Positions 21,602-32,162 of a stretch of DNA of 64,000 nucleotides are shown piece by piece. Position numbers and translations under genes: made by a program. The notes below the pieces were generated by a model. It worked only from the letters and a program-made list of their open reading frames with translations. It made no database searches and was not told the DNA's origin. Positions within the stretch are counted from its first letter, which is position 1. Each line of letters begins with the position of its first letter. Source of the DNA: Desulfatirhabdium butyrativorans DSM 18734 (GTDB lineage Bacteria > Desulfobacterota > Desulfobacteria > Desulfobacterales > Desulfatirhabdiaceae); assembly GCF_000429925.1 (NCBI RefSeq), contig NZ_KE386985.1, positions 59,225 to 123,224 on the forward strand. The letters run 5' to 3'.

Positions 21602-22996
21602 CTACTCCCGATTGCCAACGCATCGTTCACGCATCCCTCGATACAACGCCGCCATTCGGCAAGGGTCCATATGGGCGACATAAGCGGCCAGCATGAGCTG
21701 GTTGATGAGGGTGGTTCGCAGAACGCCCAGTCGGTTCCATCGCCGGGCCGAAGTCCAGACCTTTTGCGGAATGATGGTTAGATTGCCTCGGTGTCTCAGG
21801 CGCAACACGAGCTCCAGGTCTTCAAAGATGTGCCAATTCACGCAGCCGCCCATCTCCAGGAAATCCCGTCTTCTCATGCTGAGAACCTGATCTCCATAAG
21901 GAAGCTTGAGAAGCCGTGAACGAATGTTGGCCAGACATGCCACCGCCCTGACACCGAGGCTGCCTCCCTCAATTGCCAGTTCGAAGGCGCATGCCGAAAT
22001 ATCGGGGTTCCGCAGCACCTGGGCGATTTCCTTTCCGAATCCATCGGGAAGACGGGTATCTGCATGCAGGAAGGCGAGGATTTCACCTTTGGCCTCCAGA
22101 GCTGCGGCATTCAGCTGCGCTCCTCGGCCGTAAGGAAACAAAAGGACCTTCGCGCCTGCCTCCTCGGCTCTTTCCCGTGTATCGTCTTCACTGGCACCAT
22201 CCGCCACGATCACCTCATCGGCGTCCTGAAACGCAACCCGGACGGTTTCGGCGATATGTCCTGCTTCGTTTCGCGTCGGAATGATCACCGTCATCCGGTT
22301 TTCGGAATACCACCCGATGGATTGGTACACATCAGCTGTCAGATCGTCCGGTCGGTCCACATCCGAGCGTGTCGGTAGCTCGAACAGCGATAGACCCTGA
22401 ACATGAATCCGGCTCCGGGTTTCGGCGTAGAGTTCCGGCATTCCCCAGGGCATTTCTTCGAAGAGACATGGGAAAGGTTTGCGCAGACCGATCAGGATAT
22501 ATCCTCCGTCCTGAACCGGGCCCAGAACGACATCATGGGTATCCAGCGCTGAAAAGGCCTGCCGAATCGATTCGATCCCCAACTGAGGGCAGTCACATCC
22601 GGCGAGAATGACGCGGTCGGCCCCGGTGTTGAAAGCCATCCGAAAGGCGTGGGCCATCCGTTCTCCCAGATCCGTCCCCTTCTGGGGATGGAAGGCGAGC
22701 CCCTTGCCCAGCCAACGCCGAAACACCCGATCGTTGCCGTCTTCATGGAAAACGTCGATGGTCGCTTGAATCTCGGATGCAACGCAACGGGCTGTCGCAA
22801 CCGTCCTGCCTGTGAGGCTTTTCTGAAGCGATGCCGCCCCTGCCGCTCCCAGAAGCGGAATCATGCGCGTTTTCGTCGATCCCGGAGCCGGAAACCGGGA
22901 AAAGAGGATCAGGCGGCGATTGCCTGTCGACGGTTGGACCATCCCGAAGGATGTTTCGGCGGGGATACAGACGGCTGTCGTTCTGTCGGTAGGCAT
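21602..22996 (-). CDS. Fused rSAM/selenodomain-associated transferase 1 and transferase 2
   Basis: 464 residues joining two families that are usually separate. Residues about 25-225 match transferase 1 (TIGR04282, DUF2064, CofC-like): LILFSRFPAPGSTKTRM, GTDLGERMAHAF, DRVILAGCDCPQL, VLGPVQDGGYILIGL. Residues about 233-455 match transferase 2 (TIGR04283, family 2 glycosyltransferase): MTVIIPTRNEAGHIAETV, EVIVADGASEDDT, GRGAQLNAAALEAKG, FLHADTRLPDGF. Both are named for co-occurrence with the radical SAM/selenodomain system, present here 3 kb upstream in the same direction. Product unknown; a glycosylated arsenic or selenium compound has been suggested for the pathway. Its ATG overlaps the stop of the hydroxylase gene by one base. 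Confidence 0.9.
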   Translation of the reverse strand: MPTDRTTAVCIPAETSFGMVQPSTGNRRLILFSRFPAPGSTKTRMIPLLGAAGAASLQKSLTGRTVATARCVASEIQATIDVFHEDGNDRVFRRWLGKGLAFHPQKGTDLGERMAHAFRMAFNTGADRVILAGCDCPQLGIESIRQAFSALDTHDVVLGPVQDGGYILIGLRKPFPCLFEEMPWGMPELYAETRSRIHVQGLSLFELPTRSDVDRPDDLTADVYQSIGWYSENRMTVIIPTRNEAGHIAETVRVAFQDADEVIVADGASEDDTRERAEEAGAKVLLFPYGRGAQLNAAALEAKGEILAFLHADTRLPDGFGKEIAQVLRNPDISACAFELAIEGGSLGVRAVACLANIRSRLLKLPYGDQVLSMRRRDFLEMGGCVNWHIFEDLELVLRLRHRGNLTIIPQKVWTSARRWNRLGVLRTTLINQLMLAAYVAHMDPCRMAALYRGMRERCVGNRE

Positions 22997-23853
22997 TACG
23001 GGTTTCGTCTGCTGTTTCGCAGCTTTTTCGGATCGCCGCCGATCCGGTTCAGGGAATAGGCACCCGGATTCGCCGTCAGCGGAAGGATCAGCAATTTTCC
23101 CAGAAAAAGTTCGGCTTCGTTGCGAAACGGGGCAATTCCCAGGGGCATCATTTCATGGTCCAGGATCGGTTGATCCCGATAGGTGCCAAACAACCTGTCC
23201 CACCAGGGCAGGTTGAAGCCGAAGTTGCTGTTCGTCTCGCGGATGGTGACCGAATGGTGCACCCGATGCATGTCGGGTGTTACGACCAGGAGCCGCAGGA
23301 TACGATCTACAGAAAGGGGAAGCGCGATATTGCCGTGGTTGAACATGGCGGTTCCATTCAGGAGAATCTCGAAGATCAGAACGGACCGAACGGATGGCCC
23401 CAATGCAGCGACGGCCGTCATCTTGATGAGCATGGAAACCAGGATTTCAATGGGATGAAACCGAAGCCCCGTGGTCAAATCCAGCTCCATATCCGTATGA
23501 TGCACCAGATGGAGGCGCCACAGGAGGGGGGTGGCATGAAACATCAGGTGCTGAAGGTACACGACCATATCCAGCAGTACGACAGCCAGGATCGTTTCCA
23601 GTGGTTCGGGCAACGGCAGGTGGTTGAAAAGGCCCCAGCCCGAAGCATGGGCCTGCATGGCAACTCCTACAGCAGCCGTCGGCATCAGGATCCGAACCGC
23701 CAGGACATCCATCAGCGCCAATCCGAGGTTGCTCGTCCATCGTCTGGACCTGGGAAAACGACGCTTCCGGCGAGGAAAGAGGATTTCCCAGGTACCGATG
23801 AGGCCAAACAAAGCGCCGAAACAGACGAGTCGCAGCAAAGGCTCGGATGTCAT
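22996..23853 (-). CDS. Sterol desaturase / fatty acid hydroxylase superfamily membrane protein
   Basis: 285 residues with three or four membrane segments and the di-iron histidine boxes of the superfamily: HLMFH, then HLVHHTDMELD, then HRVHHS. Such enzymes hydroxylate or desaturate lipids with O2, which is notable in a presumably anaerobic host. It overlaps the regulator gene (ATGA at 23850-23853) and the transferase gene by one base, so the three are co-translated. The context suggests that the substrate is a lipid made or decorated by the rSAM/selenodomain pathway; this is inference. Confidence 0.87.
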   Translation of the reverse strand: MTSEPLLRLVCFGALFGLIGTWEILFPRRKRRFPRSRRWTSNLGLALMDVLAVRILMPTAAVGVAMQAHASGWGLFNHLPLPEPLETILAVVLLDMVVYLQHLMFHATPLLWRLHLVHHTDMELDLTTGLRFHPIEILVSMLIKMTAVAALGPSVRSVLIFEILLNGTAMFNHGNIALPLSVDRILRLLVVTPDMHRVHHSVTIRETNSNFGFNLPWWDRLFGTYRDQPILDHEMMPLGIAPFRNEAELFLGKLLILPLTANPGAYSLNRIGGDPKKLRNSRRNP

Positions 23854-24641
23854 ACCGATTCATTTCCCGTCAAATGCACATGGTGAGCGTCCACTGTCTC
23901 CTTCACTGCTTTGTCCCGATGATACGGACTCTCTTTCAGCACCCCTCGATACAACAGATGGTCATGCAGTTCAATAGCCGTCATCGCTACCTGAGCCGAA
24001 AACTGGGACAAAGGGTACTGGCACAGCAGCAAAGCCCCGGGCCGGATGCGCGCCTGAGCAGCGCTTTCGAGCTGCCGAATCTGATCGAAAGACCAGCCTC
24101 GCTCCAGTGTCCATGACATCTCCCCGAACAGCCGAAACCTGCCGGACGTATTGCAGGCAATGTCGGTGATCATTTCGATCTGATCGCCCACACTCGGTCG
24201 GCCGCTGCGGACATGCAATCTGCCGATATCTCGATACCTCCGGACATCGATCTGCCGCTTCTCCAAAAGCTGTATCAATGCATCGCGAACAGTTTCCGGG
24301 CAGACCATCATCACGGTTTCCTCATGGATCAAGCCTTCGGCAATATAGGATGTTGCAACGCTCATGGACTCGTCATCGTCTGGGCTCAGATGGGTCAGAT
24401 GAGAGCCGTCCGGCACCGAAAGGCCGTCCGTGCCCAGTGCCACATCGAAAGATGGTACGGTGGTGTCCGGAGTGCGCTGCAGGTAGTGTTCGAGGTCCGA
24501 CATTCGGAACCTTCGGGCCTTTCGGCCTCCGATGCGATAGCAGGGAAGCGATCCATCGTTGGTCCAGCGTCGAATGGTCATTTCGGATACATGAAGATAG
24601 GTCGCTGCTTCCCGTATATTGAGCAGGCGTTCCAATGCCAC
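23850..24641 (-). CDS. Excisionase-type HTH protein with MEDS (DcmR-like) sensory domain
   Basis: 263 residues. Residues 5-55 are a MerR/excisionase-like helix-turn-helix (LNIREAATYLHVSEMTIRRW, RKARRFRMSDLEHYL). Residues about 80-240 match the MEDS domain, named for methanogens and methylotrophs and found in DcmR (HLTHLSPDDDESMSVATSYI, MVCPETVRDALIQLLE, RIRPGALLLCQYPLSQF). It probably regulates this operon in response to an unidentified ligand. AGGAGG sits so close to the GTG at 24641 that the TTG two codons later (24635) may be the real start. Located 43 bp after the selenoprotein gene. Confidence 0.82.
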   Translation of the reverse strand: MALERLLNIREAATYLHVSEMTIRRWTNDGSLPCYRIGGRKARRFRMSDLEHYLQRTPDTTVPSFDVALGTDGLSVPDGSHLTHLSPDDDESMSVATSYIAEGLIHEETVMMVCPETVRDALIQLLEKRQIDVRRYRDIGRLHVRSGRPSVGDQIEMITDIACNTSGRFRLFGEMSWTLERGWSFDQIRQLESAAQARIRPGALLLCQYPLSQFSAQVAMTAIELHDHLLYRGVLKESPYHRDKAVKETVDAHHVHLTGNESV

Positions 24642-24684: not shown

Positions 24685-25902
24685 TCAGCCCTGATCGAGG
24701 GGAATCAGCAACATCTTTCCCGTCATTTTTAACGAGCGATCCGTTTCTTCGAGGCATTTTTTCCGGATATCCTTCAGTAAATCGGCTGCAGCCGTTTCAT
24801 TCCAGAACCAGTGCTGGAAGGCTTTGCCGTCGACGGGTTTTGTCCCGGGTTGGGCCATCAGCGCTTCAAAGTAAAAGGCCTTGAGATCCTGAGCTGCAAT
24901 CCGGATGGCGGCTCCCGGTGACATGCCTTTCGTCTTGTCTTCGATGGAGCCTCCGGAAGCATAGGTGCACAGCAATTCGCAGACCGATTCCGGATCGAAG
25001 TGCGTCACAGTCGTCCGTTTCGTTTTCTGAAGATTCAGATCGTACCAGTTGCGGAATTCCGCAACTTCCTGTTGAAATGCGGCAATACGCATTTCGGGTT
25101 CACTCATGCCTTCCGAGTGTCTTCGAAACGAAATGGGACAGGCCAGAACGGTCGGCTCCTGGTCTCCTTCTTCGATTTCCGGCAAGCCTTCATCGGGGAA
25201 ATCTTCCAGAACAGGGCCTTCGGAAGATTCCAACAGCTTCAGTGCGGCCAACATCACCCGATGCTGAAGGTCTGCGTTCAGTGGTTCCCCCAAGGGGCGG
25301 CCCAGATCGAAAGGCACCCACAAAGCCCTTGGCGGCCGGATGATCTGGGTATGCTCCCGGATCAGACTGATTTGGGTCGTCGGAAGACCTTCGGTTTCCA
25401 GAAAATGCCCCAGCACGCCCACGGCGCGCGTACAGAACGGTCAAACGGGTATCAGGAAGACGGCATCGACGCGATCCGCCTTCAGCAGCCCTGCCAGCTT
25501 CCTGGCCGATACCTCCATCGTGGATGGATCAGAAGCTCCCATGAAGGAATAGTGGAAATCCGCCACGCTGCCGATGACGCCTTCCTGGGCCAGCTCCCGA
25601 AGGCGGTCCAGTGGAAAGACGACGTTCCAGTCCTGCTGAAAACCGGTTCGATCGAAATTGGTCGATAAATGGGTCATCACCAGGTCGCTGGCCTGAACCG
25701 AGCCTGGAATGACCCGATAATCGCCTTCCAGACTTTCGAAAGGCCGATCCTCCCGGCGATGCAGACCCGCCGTCGAGATCAGCGCGATCCTTCGTTTCGG
25801 CAAGGCCGGACCTTTGGCCCATGGGGTCGTTGGATAGGACGGACAGGGCAGGTTCGCCAGATGGGAACGCATGGGTTCCGGAAATCGTTCAAGTCGTGCC
25901 AT
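24685..25902 (-). CDS. Selenoprotein, glycine/sarcosine/betaine reductase selenoprotein B (GrdB)-like, with in-frame UGA as selenocysteine
   Basis: Two frames (25441-25902 and 24685-25440) are in register and separated only by TGA at 25441-25443; read through, they give 405 residues with Sec154 in the context VFLIPV-U-PFCTRAVG, a UxxC redox motif at the exact place where GrdB-family proteins carry Sec. The N-terminal part has other family marks (IALISTAGLHRRED, SVADFHYSFMGA). A SECIS-like hairpin follows at 25413-25429. The C-terminal 170 residues I do not recognise. It lies 151 bp after the ArsS gene in one direction. A plain nonsense mutation is unlikely because both halves show conserved sequence up to the UGA. 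Likely a thiol/selenol redox protein of the rSAM/selenodomain system. Confidence 0.9.
25413..25429 (-). promoter_or_regulatory. SECIS-like hairpin directing Sec insertion
   Basis: In the mRNA sense, GCGCGCC pairs with GGCGTGC over 7 bp (one G-U) around a GUG loop. The stem begins 11 nt after the UGA, so the loop lies about 18 nt downstream, the spacing expected for bacterial SECIS elements, which present a G/U-containing apical loop. The tiny 3-nt loop is atypical; breaking the closing pairs would enlarge it. Confidence 0.6.
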
Positions 25903-26053: not shown

Positions 26054-27040
26054 TCAGCTCGTCAGGGCACCCTGACAGGATGAGCCTGCCCCGGCGGTGC
26101 AAGCGAAACAATGGCTGCGCACGACGACTTCGCGTTCGGCCAGCCGATGATAGTCAAAATTCTCGATGTGATTTGGGGCGCCGCTGTTCACCGTCAAATC
26201 GAGCATCTGATTGAAATCGCAGTCATACAGGCGCCCGTCCCATCCGATCGAAAGCATGGTCCGGCACATGAGGCTGCCTACGGTTTGAATGTTGAAGGCG
26301 CACTGAAGGGTGCGCATGTAATCCGACCAGTTGCCGCTGCGTTTCAAGTATTCGGCGTAGCGGCCGATGGGATTGTTGACCAAACAAAACAGCGTATTAA
26401 AGTGAAGGCCATATTGGTCGCGCAACACTCGGCGATATTCGACTTCGAGGGCGGACTGCAGCCCTGGCAGGTAAGCCCCCACCGGGTTGTGGACCAAGTG
26501 CAGCATCAGTCCGCTGCCGGGAAGGCCGTAGGATCGGTGGTTCAGATCACGAATCACCTCGATGGCTGCGGCGAAGCTGCCTGCTCCGCGTTGACGATCC
26601 GATTTTTCGGGGTGATAGTCGGGAAGAGAGGCGACCAGCTCGACCTTGTGTGCGGCAAAGATATCCAGGTATCGCCGATATGCCGGATCGAGCATCACTA
26701 CCAGGTTGCTTCGCACGATCAGGCGCTTTTTCAAACCAGCAGCTTCGCCGAGCAGCCATTCGAGCTCCGGGTGAAGTTCCGGAGCACCACCGGTGATATC
26801 GATAGTCGTGATGTTTGGGTGTGCAGCCGCTGTCATGCAGTTGGTCATGGTTTCCCGGCTCATCATTTCGGCACGATCGGGCCCGGCCTGTACATGGCAG
26901 TGCTTGCAGCTCAGGTTGCACTGACGTGTGATGTTCATCTGGAGGATTTCGATACCCGCCGACCGCAGAGGGGCGAGTCCGCAAGCCCTGAGACGCTCTG
27001 CAAAATCATCCGCCGGATGGGATGGTGGCATGAGTTGCAT
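26054..27040 (-). CDS. arsS: Arsenosugar biosynthesis-type radical SAM protein (ArsS / TIGR04167)
   Basis: 328 residues from the ATG at 27040 (GGAG 11 nt upstream; the longer frame to 27088 lies inside the previous gene). The radical SAM motif is CNLSCKHC near residue 42, followed by TIDITGGAPELHPELEW. The C-terminal domain has CRTMLSIGWDGRLYDCDFN and HCFACTAGAGSSCQG, the Cys-rich end that in some relatives carries selenocysteine; here all positions are Cys. Characterised ArsS adds a 5'-deoxyadenosyl group to dimethylarsenite. No ArsM methyltransferase is visible in this window, so the substrate may come from elsewhere or differ. Same operon direction as the selenoprotein. Confidence 0.9.
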   Translation of the reverse strand: MQLMPPSHPADDFAERLRACGLAPLRSAGIEILQMNITRQCNLSCKHCHVQAGPDRAEMMSRETMTNCMTAAAHPNITTIDITGGAPELHPELEWLLGEAAGLKKRLIVRSNLVVMLDPAYRRYLDIFAAHKVELVASLPDYHPEKSDRQRGAGSFAAAIEVIRDLNHRSYGLPGSGLMLHLVHNPVGAYLPGLQSALEVEYRRVLRDQYGLHFNTLFCLVNNPIGRYAEYLKRSGNWSDYMRTLQCAFNIQTVGSLMCRTMLSIGWDGRLYDCDFNQMLDLTVNSGAPNHIENFDYHRLAEREVVVRSHCFACTAGAGSSCQGALTS

Positions 27041-27044
27041 GGAA

Positions 27045-27383
27045 TCACATCTCCTTCTGCTTGATGATCTTGCGCATCTGGGTGGCATGGGCCAGGGTGT
27101 CGCCAGCCACCATGGCCGCTCCTACGTGGATGGCTTCCATCATCTCATCGTTGTCGACACCTAAGGACAGGCACTTGTTGGTGTAGGCATCGATGCAATA
27201 GGGACAATGGCGAACGGTAGCCACCGCCAGCGCGATCAAGGCTTTCTCCCGTTCGGTGAGCTTGCCTGCGCTGGTGGCAGCAGCGTAGTATTCGAAAAAT
27301 TTGGCGCCGGGCCCGGAGGCATACTCGCCGATGTTGGCAAAGTCTTCCAGATCCCGCTTTTGGTAATAGGTTGTTTCGTCCAT
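27045..27383 (-). CDS. Arsenosugar-associated peroxidase-like carboxymuconolactone decarboxylase family protein
   Basis: 112 residues, an all-helical AhpD-like CMD protein. The redox pair is in VRHCPYCIDAYTNKCLS (CxxC), with the usual downstream His in AIHVGAAMVAGDTLAHATQ. Family members next to ArsS often have selenocysteine at the first Cys; here the codon is Cys. It probably reduces a peroxide or recycles a thiol of the radical SAM pathway. AAGGAGATGTGATTCC at its 3' end provides the ribosome site of arsS, and its stop is 4 bp before that start. Confidence 0.88.
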   Translation of the reverse strand: MDETTYYQKRDLEDFANIGEYASGPGAKFFEYYAAATSAGKLTEREKALIALAVATVRHCPYCIDAYTNKCLSLGVDNDEMMEAIHVGAAMVAGDTLAHATQMRKIIKQKEM

Positions 27384-27500: not shown

Positions 27501-29027
27501 TCATCGTCGCCAGGCCATCAGCCGTGAAAACAGCGATTGGACAAAGGGTGTCAGCCGCGTCCGGTTGTACGCATCCCCGATTTGGCGGAGGACCTCCGCC
27601 TGTGTCGGGTAGGGGTGGATCGTGTTCGCGATGCGCCCAAGGCCCAAGTTGTGCGTCATGGCCAGGGTGATTTCCGCAATCATGTCTCCAGCATTTGCGG
27701 CCACGATGGTTGCGCCCAGGATTTTATCCGTACCCTTGCGTACATGCACACGCGCCAGCCCGTTCGTGTGGCCTTCGAGAATCGCCCGGTCCACCTCGTT
27801 TAGCGTTCGGGTGAAGGTATCGACGGCGATGCCCTGCTCGAGAGCCTGCTTTTCATAGAGTCCAACATGGGCAATCTCCGGCTCGGTGTAAGTACACCAG
27901 GGAATCGTCAATGCACTTGCCTTGGATCGGCCGAAAAACAGGGCGTTGCGGATGACGATGCGCGCCATGAAGTCAGCCGCATGGGTGAACTGATAGGGCG
28001 AGCAGATATCACCGGCAGCGTAGATGTGCGGCTGGCTGGTTTGCAGATAGTCATTGACCTGAACGCCTTTCTTGTTGAACGCGACACCTGCGGCCTCCAG
28101 CCCCAGGTGTTCCACATTCGGGGCTCGGCCCACAGCCACCAGGAGCTGATCGACTACTTCGTCGTATCCTTTGCCGTGGGAGGTCACGGTAAGACGGATT
28201 TTACCGCCCTCGGCCTTGGCCAGTTTCAGGTTCTTGCCGCAGCACAGCAGCTTCACCCCGTCTTGCTGCATGGATTCCAGTACAATGTCGGAAGCATCGG
28301 CATCTTCTCTGGGAAGAATGCCATGCATGGTCTCCACCAGCAGCACCTCCGAGCCGAAGCGGGCAAAAGACTGGGCCATTTCGCATCCAATGGGACCTGC
28401 GCCGATGACAGCCATGCGCCTGGGCAGCTCGGTCAGGGAAAAGACGGTCTCGTTCGTCAAATAGGAGATTTCACTCAACCCTTCAATGGGGGGTGCCGCA
28501 GCCCTGGCACCGGTGGCGATGACCGCTTTCTTGAAAGCCAGGCGTTCGCCGGCGACTTCGACGGTGTGGGAATCGACGAAACGGCCATCGCCCATGAACA
28601 CGTCGATGCCCAGGTTGCTGAAGCGCTGGACCGAGTCGTGCGGCGCGATGGAGGCCCGAAGCCGCCGCATGCGTTCCATCACCTGACCGAAATCGATGGT
28701 CATGCCTTCGGGGATGTGCACACCGAATGTCCTGGCATTTCGTGCGGCAGCCGCCGCCCGTGCCGCTCGGATCACAGCCTTGGACGGTACACAGCCGATA
28801 TTGAGGCAATCTCCTCCCATCAGGTGGCGCTCGATGAGGGCCACCTTGGCCCCCAGACCGGCCGCTCCGGCCGCACATACCAGTCCGGCAGTGCCGGCGC
28901 CGATGACAACCAGGTTGTAGCGTGAGGCCGGCTTTGGGTTTTGCCAGTCCAGGGGATGGACATGGGAGGCCAGTTGCTGGTTGTGGGTATCCCATGGACT
29001 TAGGATGGTGGTTTCCGAGGCTTTCAT
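27501..29027 (-). CDS. Mercuric-reductase-like FAD-dependent disulfide oxidoreductase
   Basis: 508 residues of the class I pyridine nucleotide-disulfide oxidoreductase family. The FAD site is YNLVVIGAGTAGLVCAAGAAG; the redox disulfide is in GGDCLNIGCVPSKAVIR; the NAD(P) site is RRMAVIGAGPIGCEMAQSF; the second FAD motif is IYAAGDI; and the dimerisation domain ends with HPYPTQAEVLRQIGDAYNR. The C-terminal Cys pair of true MerA and the lipoamide dehydrogenase HPHPT motif are altered or absent, so the substrate is uncertain. Such proteins are often fused to or next to TVP38/TMEM64 membrane proteins, one of which lies two genes upstream. Confidence 0.88.
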   Translation of the reverse strand: MKASETTILSPWDTHNQQLASHVHPLDWQNPKPASRYNLVVIGAGTAGLVCAAGAAGLGAKVALIERHLMGGDCLNIGCVPSKAVIRAARAAAAARNARTFGVHIPEGMTIDFGQVMERMRRLRASIAPHDSVQRFSNLGIDVFMGDGRFVDSHTVEVAGERLAFKKAVIATGARAAAPPIEGLSEISYLTNETVFSLTELPRRMAVIGAGPIGCEMAQSFARFGSEVLLVETMHGILPREDADASDIVLESMQQDGVKLLCCGKNLKLAKAEGGKIRLTVTSHGKGYDEVVDQLLVAVGRAPNVEHLGLEAAGVAFNKKGVQVNDYLQTSQPHIYAAGDICSPYQFTHAADFMARIVIRNALFFGRSKASALTIPWCTYTEPEIAHVGLYEKQALEQGIAVDTFTRTLNEVDRAILEGHTNGLARVHVRKGTDKILGATIVAANAGDMIAEITLAMTHNLGLGRIANTIHPYPTQAEVLRQIGDAYNRTRLTPFVQSLFSRLMAWRR

Positions 29028-30630: not shown

Positions 30631-31398
30631 CTACATGGCATTGCCATTCATGGTCGAGACGTCGCTTGTATGACTGTCTGTCGTTTTTGAGGCTGATTTC
30701 TGAGATGAGCTCCTGTAACGGGCAAGCAACTTTCTTGCGGTGATCGGAAACAAGCCCAGCGCTGCAAAGGAAACCAGCACGCCGGGGGATAGAATGCCCG
30801 ACAGGGAATCGATTTTGGCCAGCTCCTTTCCGGCATTGACATAAACAATGGTTCCAGCCAGCATGCCGATTTGCGACACCCAGAAAAAGGTGAAAAGTCG
30901 CATCTTGGTAAGCCCCATCAGCAGGTTGATCACGAAAAACGGGAACACCGGCACCAAGCGAAGGGAAAAGAGATAAAAAGCGCCCTCCTTTTCGATGCCG
31001 CCGTTGATGGTCGCCAGTCGATCGCCGAATTTGCCCTGCACCCAATCCTGCAGCAGAAACCGGGAAACGGCGCAAGCGAGTGTGGCGCCAATGGTGCTGG
31101 CAAACGATACGGCGATGGTTCCGACGACCAAACCAAACAGCCCACCACCTGCCACGGTCAGGACGGCTGCGCCAGGCAGCGACAGGGCCGTGACCGCAAT
31201 ATAGATGCCCATGTAGGCGGCGATCACGGCGAACCGGTGCGACTGGTACAACTGTTGAAATTTCTCCTGGGACGCCTTGAGGTAGTCGAGGGAGAGATAT
31301 CGCCCCAACTCGAAATATCGGAAGGCGAAAATGCCAATCACGATAAGACCAACCACGACCGCCTTGCCGATCCAAGTATTCTTTTTTGTCGGTATCAT
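30631..31398 (-). CDS. TVP38/TMEM64 (DedA-like) membrane protein
   Basis: 255 residues from the ATG at 31398; longer starts lie upstream at 31413 and 31443. Six or so membrane segments, with the family core AVTALSLPGAAVLTVAGGGLFG, SFASTIGATLACAVSRF and LRLVPVFPFFVINLLMGLT, a VTT-domain signature. Family members are proposed lipid scramblases or transporters. It is the first gene of a possible ten-gene minus-strand run and commonly pairs with mercuric-reductase-like proteins such as the one at 27501-29027. Confidence 0.87.
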   Translation of the reverse strand: MIPTKKNTWIGKAVVVGLIVIGIFAFRYFELGRYLSLDYLKASQEKFQQLYQSHRFAVIAAYMGIYIAVTALSLPGAAVLTVAGGGLFGLVVGTIAVSFASTIGATLACAVSRFLLQDWVQGKFGDRLATINGGIEKEGAFYLFSLRLVPVFPFFVINLLMGLTKMRLFTFFWVSQIGMLAGTIVYVNAGKELAKIDSLSGILSPGVLVSFAALGLFPITARKLLARYRSSSQKSASKTTDSHTSDVSTMNGNAM

Positions 31399-32162
31399 GG
31401 TTTCTGAACCTTTCATCACCGGTTGCTTGCCGCAAAAGACCACACCTGGTTAGCGAGCTGCCCTGCTGTATCGGATCGAAGGTGGGCATTTCGCAGAAAA
31501 TCGATCCGCTCTTGAACCAATCGAGATAACGGACGATACACATTTCCTTTGGAGGAATCGATCATCGAACATGATAGTTATTCAATGCTATACAAATTTA
31601 TATATAGCTGTTCATCGATCGATAGCAACCCAAAATTGTGGATGGACTCGCAAAAAGGCGACGAGTCTTTCGTGGGCCGCATGGGGGGCGGGCACGCCTT
31701 TTCCGCTGCAAAAGTCATCCGTCCTGTCCGCATGCGACGTCGTATCCTAAACCAGGGACTTTGACGGGGTTCTGGAGGGTATCCGTTGCATTTTCGTTGA
31801 CCATGGTAATCAGGTGATATACTCAAGCGTGTAAGACTTCTACGTCAATGAGCCGGGGGAAGCATCATCGGAATCGCTCACGCAGACGGCCGGGTGTAAA
31901 CCCCCGGCCCTACAGCGCCCCGCTGGATGAAAGTCGCCGGGGCGAGTTCCGTAGGAATCCCCCATGCAGCCGGGGCTTCACCCCGGTTAATGAAAGTCGA
32001 TGGAGCAACTTCCTTAGGAGTGTGGCGACATGACAGCCGCCCTACGACACTGCCGACCGCCGACTGCCCACTGCCCACTTTCGTAGGAATCCCAGGAAGG
32101 CGGACTTGCGTATTACGTACTGCACATCTTGATTTTCAGGACAATCACGTGAGGACTTGTTG
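31399..32162. other. Divergent intergenic region with repeats
   Basis: This 764-bp gap separates the minus-strand TVP38 run from the plus-strand pseudopilin genes. Positions 31540-31625 are AT-rich and could hold the TVP38 promoter. Positions 31885-32012 hold REP family 2 sequence in inverted orientation (copy at 31955-32012), and 32049-32076 hold four ACTGCC-type heptads. A 71-codon frame at 31549-31764 has no recognisable family. Confidence 0.55.
31885..32076 (-). repeat. REP family 2 copy plus ACTGCC heptads
   Basis: The reverse complement of 31955-32012 follows the copy at 2150-2214 base by base over most of its length (GACTTTCATTAACCGGGGTG ... TGCATGGG.GATTCCTA). A further palindrome, GGCCGGGTGTAAACCCCCGGCC-like, lies at 31889-31911. 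At 32049-32076 four heptads read ACTGCCG, ACCGCCG, ACTGCCC, ACTGCCC. Confidence 0.7.

Follow-up and report, generated by a model that had tools for sequence, protein, structure and literature searches.

The window is a stretch of 64,000 nucleotides from Desulfatirhabdium butyrativorans DSM 18734 (contig NZ_KE386985.1, positions 59,225 to 123,224). A frame of 405 codons lies on its minus strand, with an ATG at 25902 and a terminal TGA at 24687-24685. The sole interruption is an in-frame TGA at 25443-25441. The table-11 ORF listing splits this frame into a 153 aa ORF (25441-25902) and a 245 aa ORF starting from GTG (24685-25422). The features of the gene and of its surroundings were as follows.

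23850..24641 (-): HTH_17 and MEDS small-molecule-sensing protein, the next gene downstream (43 nt), a candidate regulator (Pfam)
24685..25902 (-): predicted selenoprotein gene, 405 residues and a terminal TGA (one frame; full-length relatives have the identical frame and TGA)
24688..25119 (-): predicted six-helix domain, residues 262-405, with no recognisable relative (Pfam, AlphaFold2, PDB fold comparison)
25198..25902 (-): PrdB/GrdB-like alpha/beta domain, residues 1-235 (PF07355, TIGR04483 over residues 33-226, AlphaFold2 model)
25413..25429 (-): SECIS-like hairpin, a 7-bp stem (25423-25429 with 25413-25419) and a GUG loop (25420-25422) (comparative evidence)
25441..25443 (-): in-frame UGA, predicted selenocysteine 154 (Sec154) in the motif VFLIPV-U-PFC, a UxxC with Cys157 (TGA kept in relatives)
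26054..27088 (-): ArsS radical SAM protein, the next gene upstream (TIGR04167, 398.9 bits, cut-off 300)
27045..27383 (-): AhpD-like arsenosugar-associated protein (TIGR04169)
27501..29027 (-): MerA-like FAD oxidoreductase (NF004991)
30631..31443 (-): VTT-domain (TVP38-like) membrane protein (Pfam)

The first-pass annotation had described two minus-strand frames in register with one TGA between them, and its coordinates (25441-25443) were exact. The residues around the TGA, VFLIPV-U-PFCTRAVG, were also as it had claimed. The D. butyrativorans genome (4.48 Mb, 73 contigs, a 97.3% complete draft) was searched for the selenocysteine machinery. The four genes whose presence had been proposed as a check all scored above cut-off: tRNA-Sec (selC) at 77.1 bits (cut-off 47), selB at 356.4 bits (cut-off 242), selA at 608.1 bits (cut-off 268) and selD at 375.4 bits (cut-off 125). 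The selD match (G000:C2:142842-143768) has one in-frame TGA inside it and is probably a selenoprotein too. SelB scored above cut-off in 30 of 36 genomes that carry a relative of the gene. The other six are drafts in which just fragments or other GTPases scored. SelB and Sec-tRNA would read the UGA at 25441-25443 as selenocysteine 154, given its conservation and the known SelB pathway.

Relatives were present at E <=1e-8 in 94 of 395 genomes of the same phylum. Eleven matches, the window's own included, run from residue 1 to about residue 404 with 45-61% identity, and each has one in-frame TGA. The full-length copy in genome G026 has a TAA in addition to its in-frame TGA. Scanning the GTDB species genomes yielded 37 loci. 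Alignment A1 has TGA at residue 154 in 33/33 rows, with both flanks conserved and 49-63% identity to the window protein. Its named rows belong to Thermodesulfobacteriota, Chloroflexota, Pseudomonadota, Gemmatimonadota and Actinomycetota. Three further phyla were searched at E <=1e-15. Relatives were found in 15 of 398 Pseudomonadota genomes (the phylum of G427), 93 of 400 Chloroflexota genomes (G415) and 64 of 396 Actinomycetota genomes (G424). A match was classed as full-length if it covered about residues 10-385 or more. There were 39 such matches, 11 in the window's phylum, 2 in Pseudomonadota, 16 in Chloroflexota and 10 in Actinomycetota, and 38 of them carry the TGA. The exception is locus L140, which has Cys at the Sec site. 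Most of the remaining matches are short forms that stop near residue 230; the majority have the TGA and some do not. Cys was found at the Sec site of short forms L104-L112, L114, L130 and L132-L134. The homologues run on in frame through the TGA, which had been a point to check. Comparison of these relatives shows the UGA kept as UGA in at least five phyla, with the frame continuing.

Close to the window's genome the gene is patchy. It was found in 0/2 genomes of the same family, and in 1/14 genomes of the same order just a 39-residue stretch was found, which suggests horizontal transfer or loss. In a tree built from 71 rows of the N-terminal domain (SH-aLRT only, midpoint root), a branch with support 92 separated the 46 long-form rows from the rest. 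The long forms were grouped with L031 and L032, which have a divergent C-terminal extension too, with support 95. This was a quick tree in which some end branches are long. One Chloroflexota contig (G1215:C27:8490-13326) holds three full-length copies in tandem, and every copy has a single in-frame TGA. Two in-frame TGA codons were present in short relatives from G1279, G1307, G1340, G1552, G1604, G1431, G888, G1073 and G1129. These may be double selenoproteins, or the second TGA may be a stop inside the match.

A 7-bp stem with a G/U loop about 18 nt downstream of the TGA had been reported, and this held: the GUG loop is 18 nt and the start of the stem 11 nt after the UGA. RNA folding of the UGA region had been proposed as a check and did not single it out. 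The single-sequence fold of the hairpin region was no more stable than shuffles (z +0.71, with 152/200 shuffles at least as good), and its minimum-energy fold is not exactly the 25413-25429 stem. Over the folded windows the mean z was -0.56 (simple shuffles). Single-sequence folding was therefore ruled out as proof of the hairpin, and the evidence for it is comparative. The Rfam scan of the window gave no match at gathering thresholds.

Sixty distinct hairpin windows were compared, 59 with TGA and one with GGA. The loop starts with GU in 58 and at least 6/7 pairs form in 56. Among 46 long-form windows 90.4% of cells were paired, with a double change in 5/7 pairs. For 64 long-form rows the paired fraction was 90.2%, and 30 double-change cells were counted compared to a shuffled mean of 5.3; a change that several rows inherited is counted in each of them. 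Double changes occurred at least once in 6/7 pairs of these rows and the slid controls were far lower. A 30-row hand-chosen set including short relatives had 51 double-change cells compared to 17.3 in shuffles, counted in the same way. Codon and position controls are independent of amino-acid conservation. Arg159 is encoded by CGC in 29/32 A1 rows (274/887 elsewhere in the same ORFs), Ala160 by GCC in 29/32 rows (615/1435 elsewhere) and Gly162 by GGC in 32/33 rows (339/824 elsewhere). At the hairpin spacing, 32/33 rows form a stem of 6 or more pairs after the Sec column. The next best column had 9/33, and the other codons together 195/12771. The comparison shows selection on the hairpin just downstream of the UGA as RNA.

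The Cys forms were scored for the same pairs. L140, the full-length Cys form, has TGC at the site and nearly the same protein motif (TPACPMCTRTVCTLAH) but only 2/7 pairs, compared to 6 or 7 of 7 in the full-length Sec copies from the same search (L135-L139 and L141-L143). Ten Pseudomonadota Cys short forms had 3-5/7 pairs and a GU-starting loop in 0/10, while their Sec sibling L113 had 6/7. The pairing contrast of these short forms with L113 is weak; the clean contrast is that of L140 with its Sec relatives. In the subfamily L130-L134 the number of pairs was 5 in L130 (Cys), 4 in L131 (Sec), 2 in L132 (Cys) and 3 in both L133 and L134 (Cys). L131 (G1134) and L130 (G1031) have near-identical motifs. 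Pairing at this spacing does not follow Sec in the subfamily, so its SECIS may be placed otherwise. L129 was left out of the hairpin scoring as its motif was missed by the search pattern.

The reading of the in-frame UGA as selenocysteine, proposed in the first-pass annotation, is upheld by the conserved TGA, the sel genes of the genome and the covarying hairpin. Region 24685-25902 on the minus strand is almost certainly one gene and not two broken genes, its apparent stop being read as selenocysteine. It is scarcely credible that the TGA acts as a true stop codon, arose from a sequencing error or marks a pseudogene, leaving two separate or decayed genes. Broken copies do occur elsewhere, with an extra stop in L021/L062 and interruptions in L029, L030 and L083, and L041 has GGA at the Sec site. 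Against this, the identical TGA recurs in every A1 row at about 49-63% protein identity over the whole length, the hairpin after it covaries, and L140, the Cys form, has an uninterrupted full-length ORF.

The broken copies (L021/L062, L029 in G009, L030 in G331 and L083 in G430) suggest repeated decay or assembly errors. L041 (G359) is a short PrdB-like form with GGA (Gly) at 1927-1929 where others have TGA. Its hairpin is still present, and the GGA is either a recent Sec loss or a sequencing error.

The N-terminal domain matched Pfam GRDB (PF07355) at 33.9 bits (gathering cut-off 22) over residues 81-150 only. The best NCBIfam score was to TIGR04483 (PrdB) at 103.5 bits, below the cut-off of 300, over residues 33-226. 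TIGR04483 matched 33/33 family members at E <=0.001. The GrdB-type NCBIfam models scored 39.7-51.9 bits, with TIGR01917 (GrdB) at 39.7 (cut-off 602.2) and TIGR01918 at 47.9 (cut-off 65.45). No NCBIfam cut-off was reached by the selenoprotein. The claim that both sides of the TGA keep family sequence was confirmed by the TIGR04483 match, which spans the UGA although it is below cut-off; the PF07355 match is confined to residues 81-150. The description of the protein as GrdB-like was right in part. It stands at the level of PF07355, and solely there, because the scores are below both the GrdB and the PrdB cut-offs, and the protein is nearer to PrdB than to GrdB. With PrdB it shares a homologous N-terminal domain and a UxxC with Sec at the matching place. 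It differs from PrdB in being far under the 300-bit cut-off, in having about 170 extra C-terminal residues and in that no PF09338 partner was found. Among GrdB, GrdH and GrdF (PF07355, TIGR01917, TIGR01918, NF040795, NF040794) the likeness is to the C-terminal part, which holds the Sec site. The N-terminal part of these proteins is missing from the selenoprotein, with matches starting at profile positions 266-274, and its own C-terminal domain is a different one.

PrdA presumably falls under PF09338, the GrdE-type partner family. PF09338 had no match in the window's genome (a 97.3% complete draft), and the control genomes of the first search gave none either. A follow-up search covered 26 genomes, with GrdB-type genomes as positive control. 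PF09338 was found in 5/5 genomes with GrdB-type matches (G256, G035, G296, G371 and G241). It was also found in 3/16 carriers of long, interrupted or divergent forms (G026, G358 and G033) and in 0/5 carriers of short forms (G056, G303, G341, G043 and G119). In G033 and G358 PF09338 shares its contig with a separate GrdB-type match, and the long form is on a different contig. The short forms lack PF09338 too, so the added C-terminal domain by itself does not explain the missing partner. The absence is provisional as the carrier genomes are drafts. In the published mechanism GrdE and PrdA carry a pyruvoyl group (PMC10838667, from a title cited there). The two-domain selenoprotein appears to work without a GrdE-type partner of PF09338.

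It is improbable that the protein is instead a subunit of a Stickland-type reductase (glycine, betaine, sarcosine or D-proline reductase) with its pyruvoyl partner encoded elsewhere. The PF07355 score above the gathering cut-off, the TIGR04483 match to residues 33-226 and to all family members, and the UxxC at the same place are in keeping with such a subunit. The scores below cut-off for TIGR04483 (103.5/300), TIGR01918 and TIGR01917 are not, and PF09338 was missing from the genome in a search that succeeded in all of the GrdB-type genomes. No second PF07355 match was found in the window's genome.

The C-terminal region of about 170 residues had been noted as belonging to no recognised family, and no Pfam family covers it. 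Pfam searches of 32 C-terminal domains gave no convincing family, with the best stray matches at E 0.008-0.009. The suggestion of a new architecture was also borne out, as a family of two-domain proteins and not a single oddity. An AlphaFold2 model built with A1, with Cys in place of Sec, had a mean pLDDT of 82. In it an alpha/beta domain extends to about residue 235 and is joined, by a linker of low prediction quality near 241-261, to a C-terminal part made up of helices only. The C-terminal 144 residues modelled alone gave six helices at a mean pLDDT of 90.5. Positions near or fully invariant in this domain in A1 include Glu279, Trp286, Asp339, Leu340, Tyr344, Glu346, Pro352, Trp365, Trp367 and Thr370. 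A sequence search of solved structures gave nothing credible, with one match at E 0.25. Foldseek gave no match at E <=0.001 for the whole model and a best E of 1.7 for the C-terminal domain alone. The best VIA match of the domain alone was Z 5.2 over 94 residues at 4.9 A, which does not by itself establish a novel fold. The helical domain would bind a substrate, a redox partner or a second subunit. For the whole model VIA returned a LacI-type regulator (Z 9.7, 142 residues, 3.8 A rmsd). Many similar rows were returned, pointing to a common alpha/beta arrangement, and this candidate was set aside.

In addition to the neighbours listed above, ORF 21602-22996 on the minus strand is a fusion: its N-terminal half matches TIGR04282 and its C-terminal half TIGR04283, each scoring above cut-off. 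Both are arsenosugar-type glycosyltransferase models. A fatty-acid-hydroxylase-type protein is a further same-strand neighbour in the window. ArsS (26054-27088) ends in ...GAGSSCQGALTS, with Cys. For the ArsS family Sec is reported in a GxxU motif (PMC13188914, a 2026 review). The copy in the window looks like a Cys form by this comparison.

Neighbours were also examined at 52 other carrier loci. Because longest-ORF calling produces spurious genes in G+C-rich loci, the comparison was limited to genes backed by a family match or by homology. Homologues of the window's genes lie near the selenoprotein at 9 loci for the MEDS-HTH protein, 8 for the MerA-like protein (two of them weak or partial), 7 for the VTT protein and 1 for ArsS. 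These counts are minima because many of the loci have short flanks; at least one locus was seen twice. Other neighbours were FMN reductases (FMN_red; L050, L067), a ferredoxin-nitroreductase (L089), MFS transporters (L055, L078), an arylmalonate-decarboxylase-like protein (L064), a beta-eliminating lyase (L060), DUF1638 (L057), URO-D (L074) and PhyH (L073). The FMN reductases and the ferredoxin-nitroreductase are possible reductants of the selenoprotein in some relatives. The neighbourhoods differ between phyla and name no substrate. MEDS senses simple hydrocarbon derivatives, as described for DcmR (PMC11507031), and the adjacent MEDS sensor would control expression of the selenoprotein in part of Thermodesulfobacteriota. 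A methyl-transfer role, hinted at by MEDS, DUF1638 and URO-D, was rejected as the cases were too few.

The Sec/Cys pair could reduce or demethylate methylated or thiolated arsenicals within an arsenosugar or metal-resistance operon. This role in arsenic or mercury detoxification is suggested by ArsS, the AhpD-like and MerA-like proteins and the TIGR04282/TIGR04283 domains in the window. ArsS, VTT and MerA-like genes also lie alongside L076, and an ArsR-family regulator lies near L047 on the opposite strand. The low counts at the other carrier loci and the unrelated neighbours in other phyla make it rather unlikely. The arsenosugar role in particular was demoted as ArsS was near only 1/52 other loci. 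Given the different neighbours elsewhere, the arsenosugar cluster is probably local context and not the function of the family.

Parts of the family have precedents. Table 1 of the 2026 review (PMC13188914), which covers 119 prokaryotic selenoprotein families and subfamilies, gives GrdB as PF07355 and D-proline reductase as TIGR04483; the available part of the table holds no separate entry for the two-domain form. PrdB-like UxxC selenoproteins are abundant in marine metagenomes, with 42 Sargasso Sea sequences and 235 Sec and 110 Cys sequences from GOS (PMC1088965, PMC2398784). The catalytic domain with Sec was thus already reported from sea water. The short relatives are probably of the same class as these "Proline reductase PrdB" proteins. 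In the accessible text of the two papers, in contrast, neither the helical C-terminal domain nor a missing pyruvoyl partner is described, and their counts may include long forms. FarB is GrdB-like and was proposed to reduce monofluoroacetate (PMC10838667). It is relevant here as a case in which Sec chemistry on a substrate other than an amine has been proposed for the GrdB family. FarB differs in being encoded with a GrdE homologue, FarE, while PF09338 had no match in the window's genome. No description of the two-domain form, its spread or its missing partner was found in the open-access literature, a search that leaves out most subscription papers.

The mechanism favoured here, and held to be somewhat more probable than its alternatives taken together, is that of a Sec/Cys reductase that works without a partner and carries an extra helical domain. 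The N-terminal domain would be the PrdB/GrdB-type catalytic domain. Sec154 would displace a leaving group by attacking a small molecule at an electrophilic centre. Cys157 of the UxxC would then resolve the bond between Se and substrate, giving a selenenylsulfide, and the Sec154/Cys157 pair would be reduced again by a thiol or flavin reductase. As no PF09338 partner was found, pyruvoyl activation of an amino group should be unneeded. The substrate should then already bear a good leaving group or a soft electrophilic atom.

A broader proposal is offered tentatively, as one that may well prove wrong. The two-domain proteins would be widespread single-chain selenoenzymes that perform GrdB/PrdB chemistry without a pyruvoyl subunit. 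The helical C-terminal domain would replace the lost partner or bind a new one, and Sec would cleave activated carbon-heteroatom bonds (halogen, sulfur, arsenic or quaternary nitrogen) in small metabolites or pollutants. If so, many "D-proline reductases" of earlier selenoproteome surveys are misnamed.

An apparent split gene has become a selenoenzyme family in at least five phyla, with one full-length Cys form among 39 full-length matches. L140 and its Sec relatives form a natural Sec/Cys pair, a clean comparison for the decay of a hairpin within a coding sequence once Sec is lost. If the partner-free reading is true, GrdB/PrdB-type Sec chemistry would not be tied to amino-acid fermentation and environmental counts of "proline reductase" would need re-reading.
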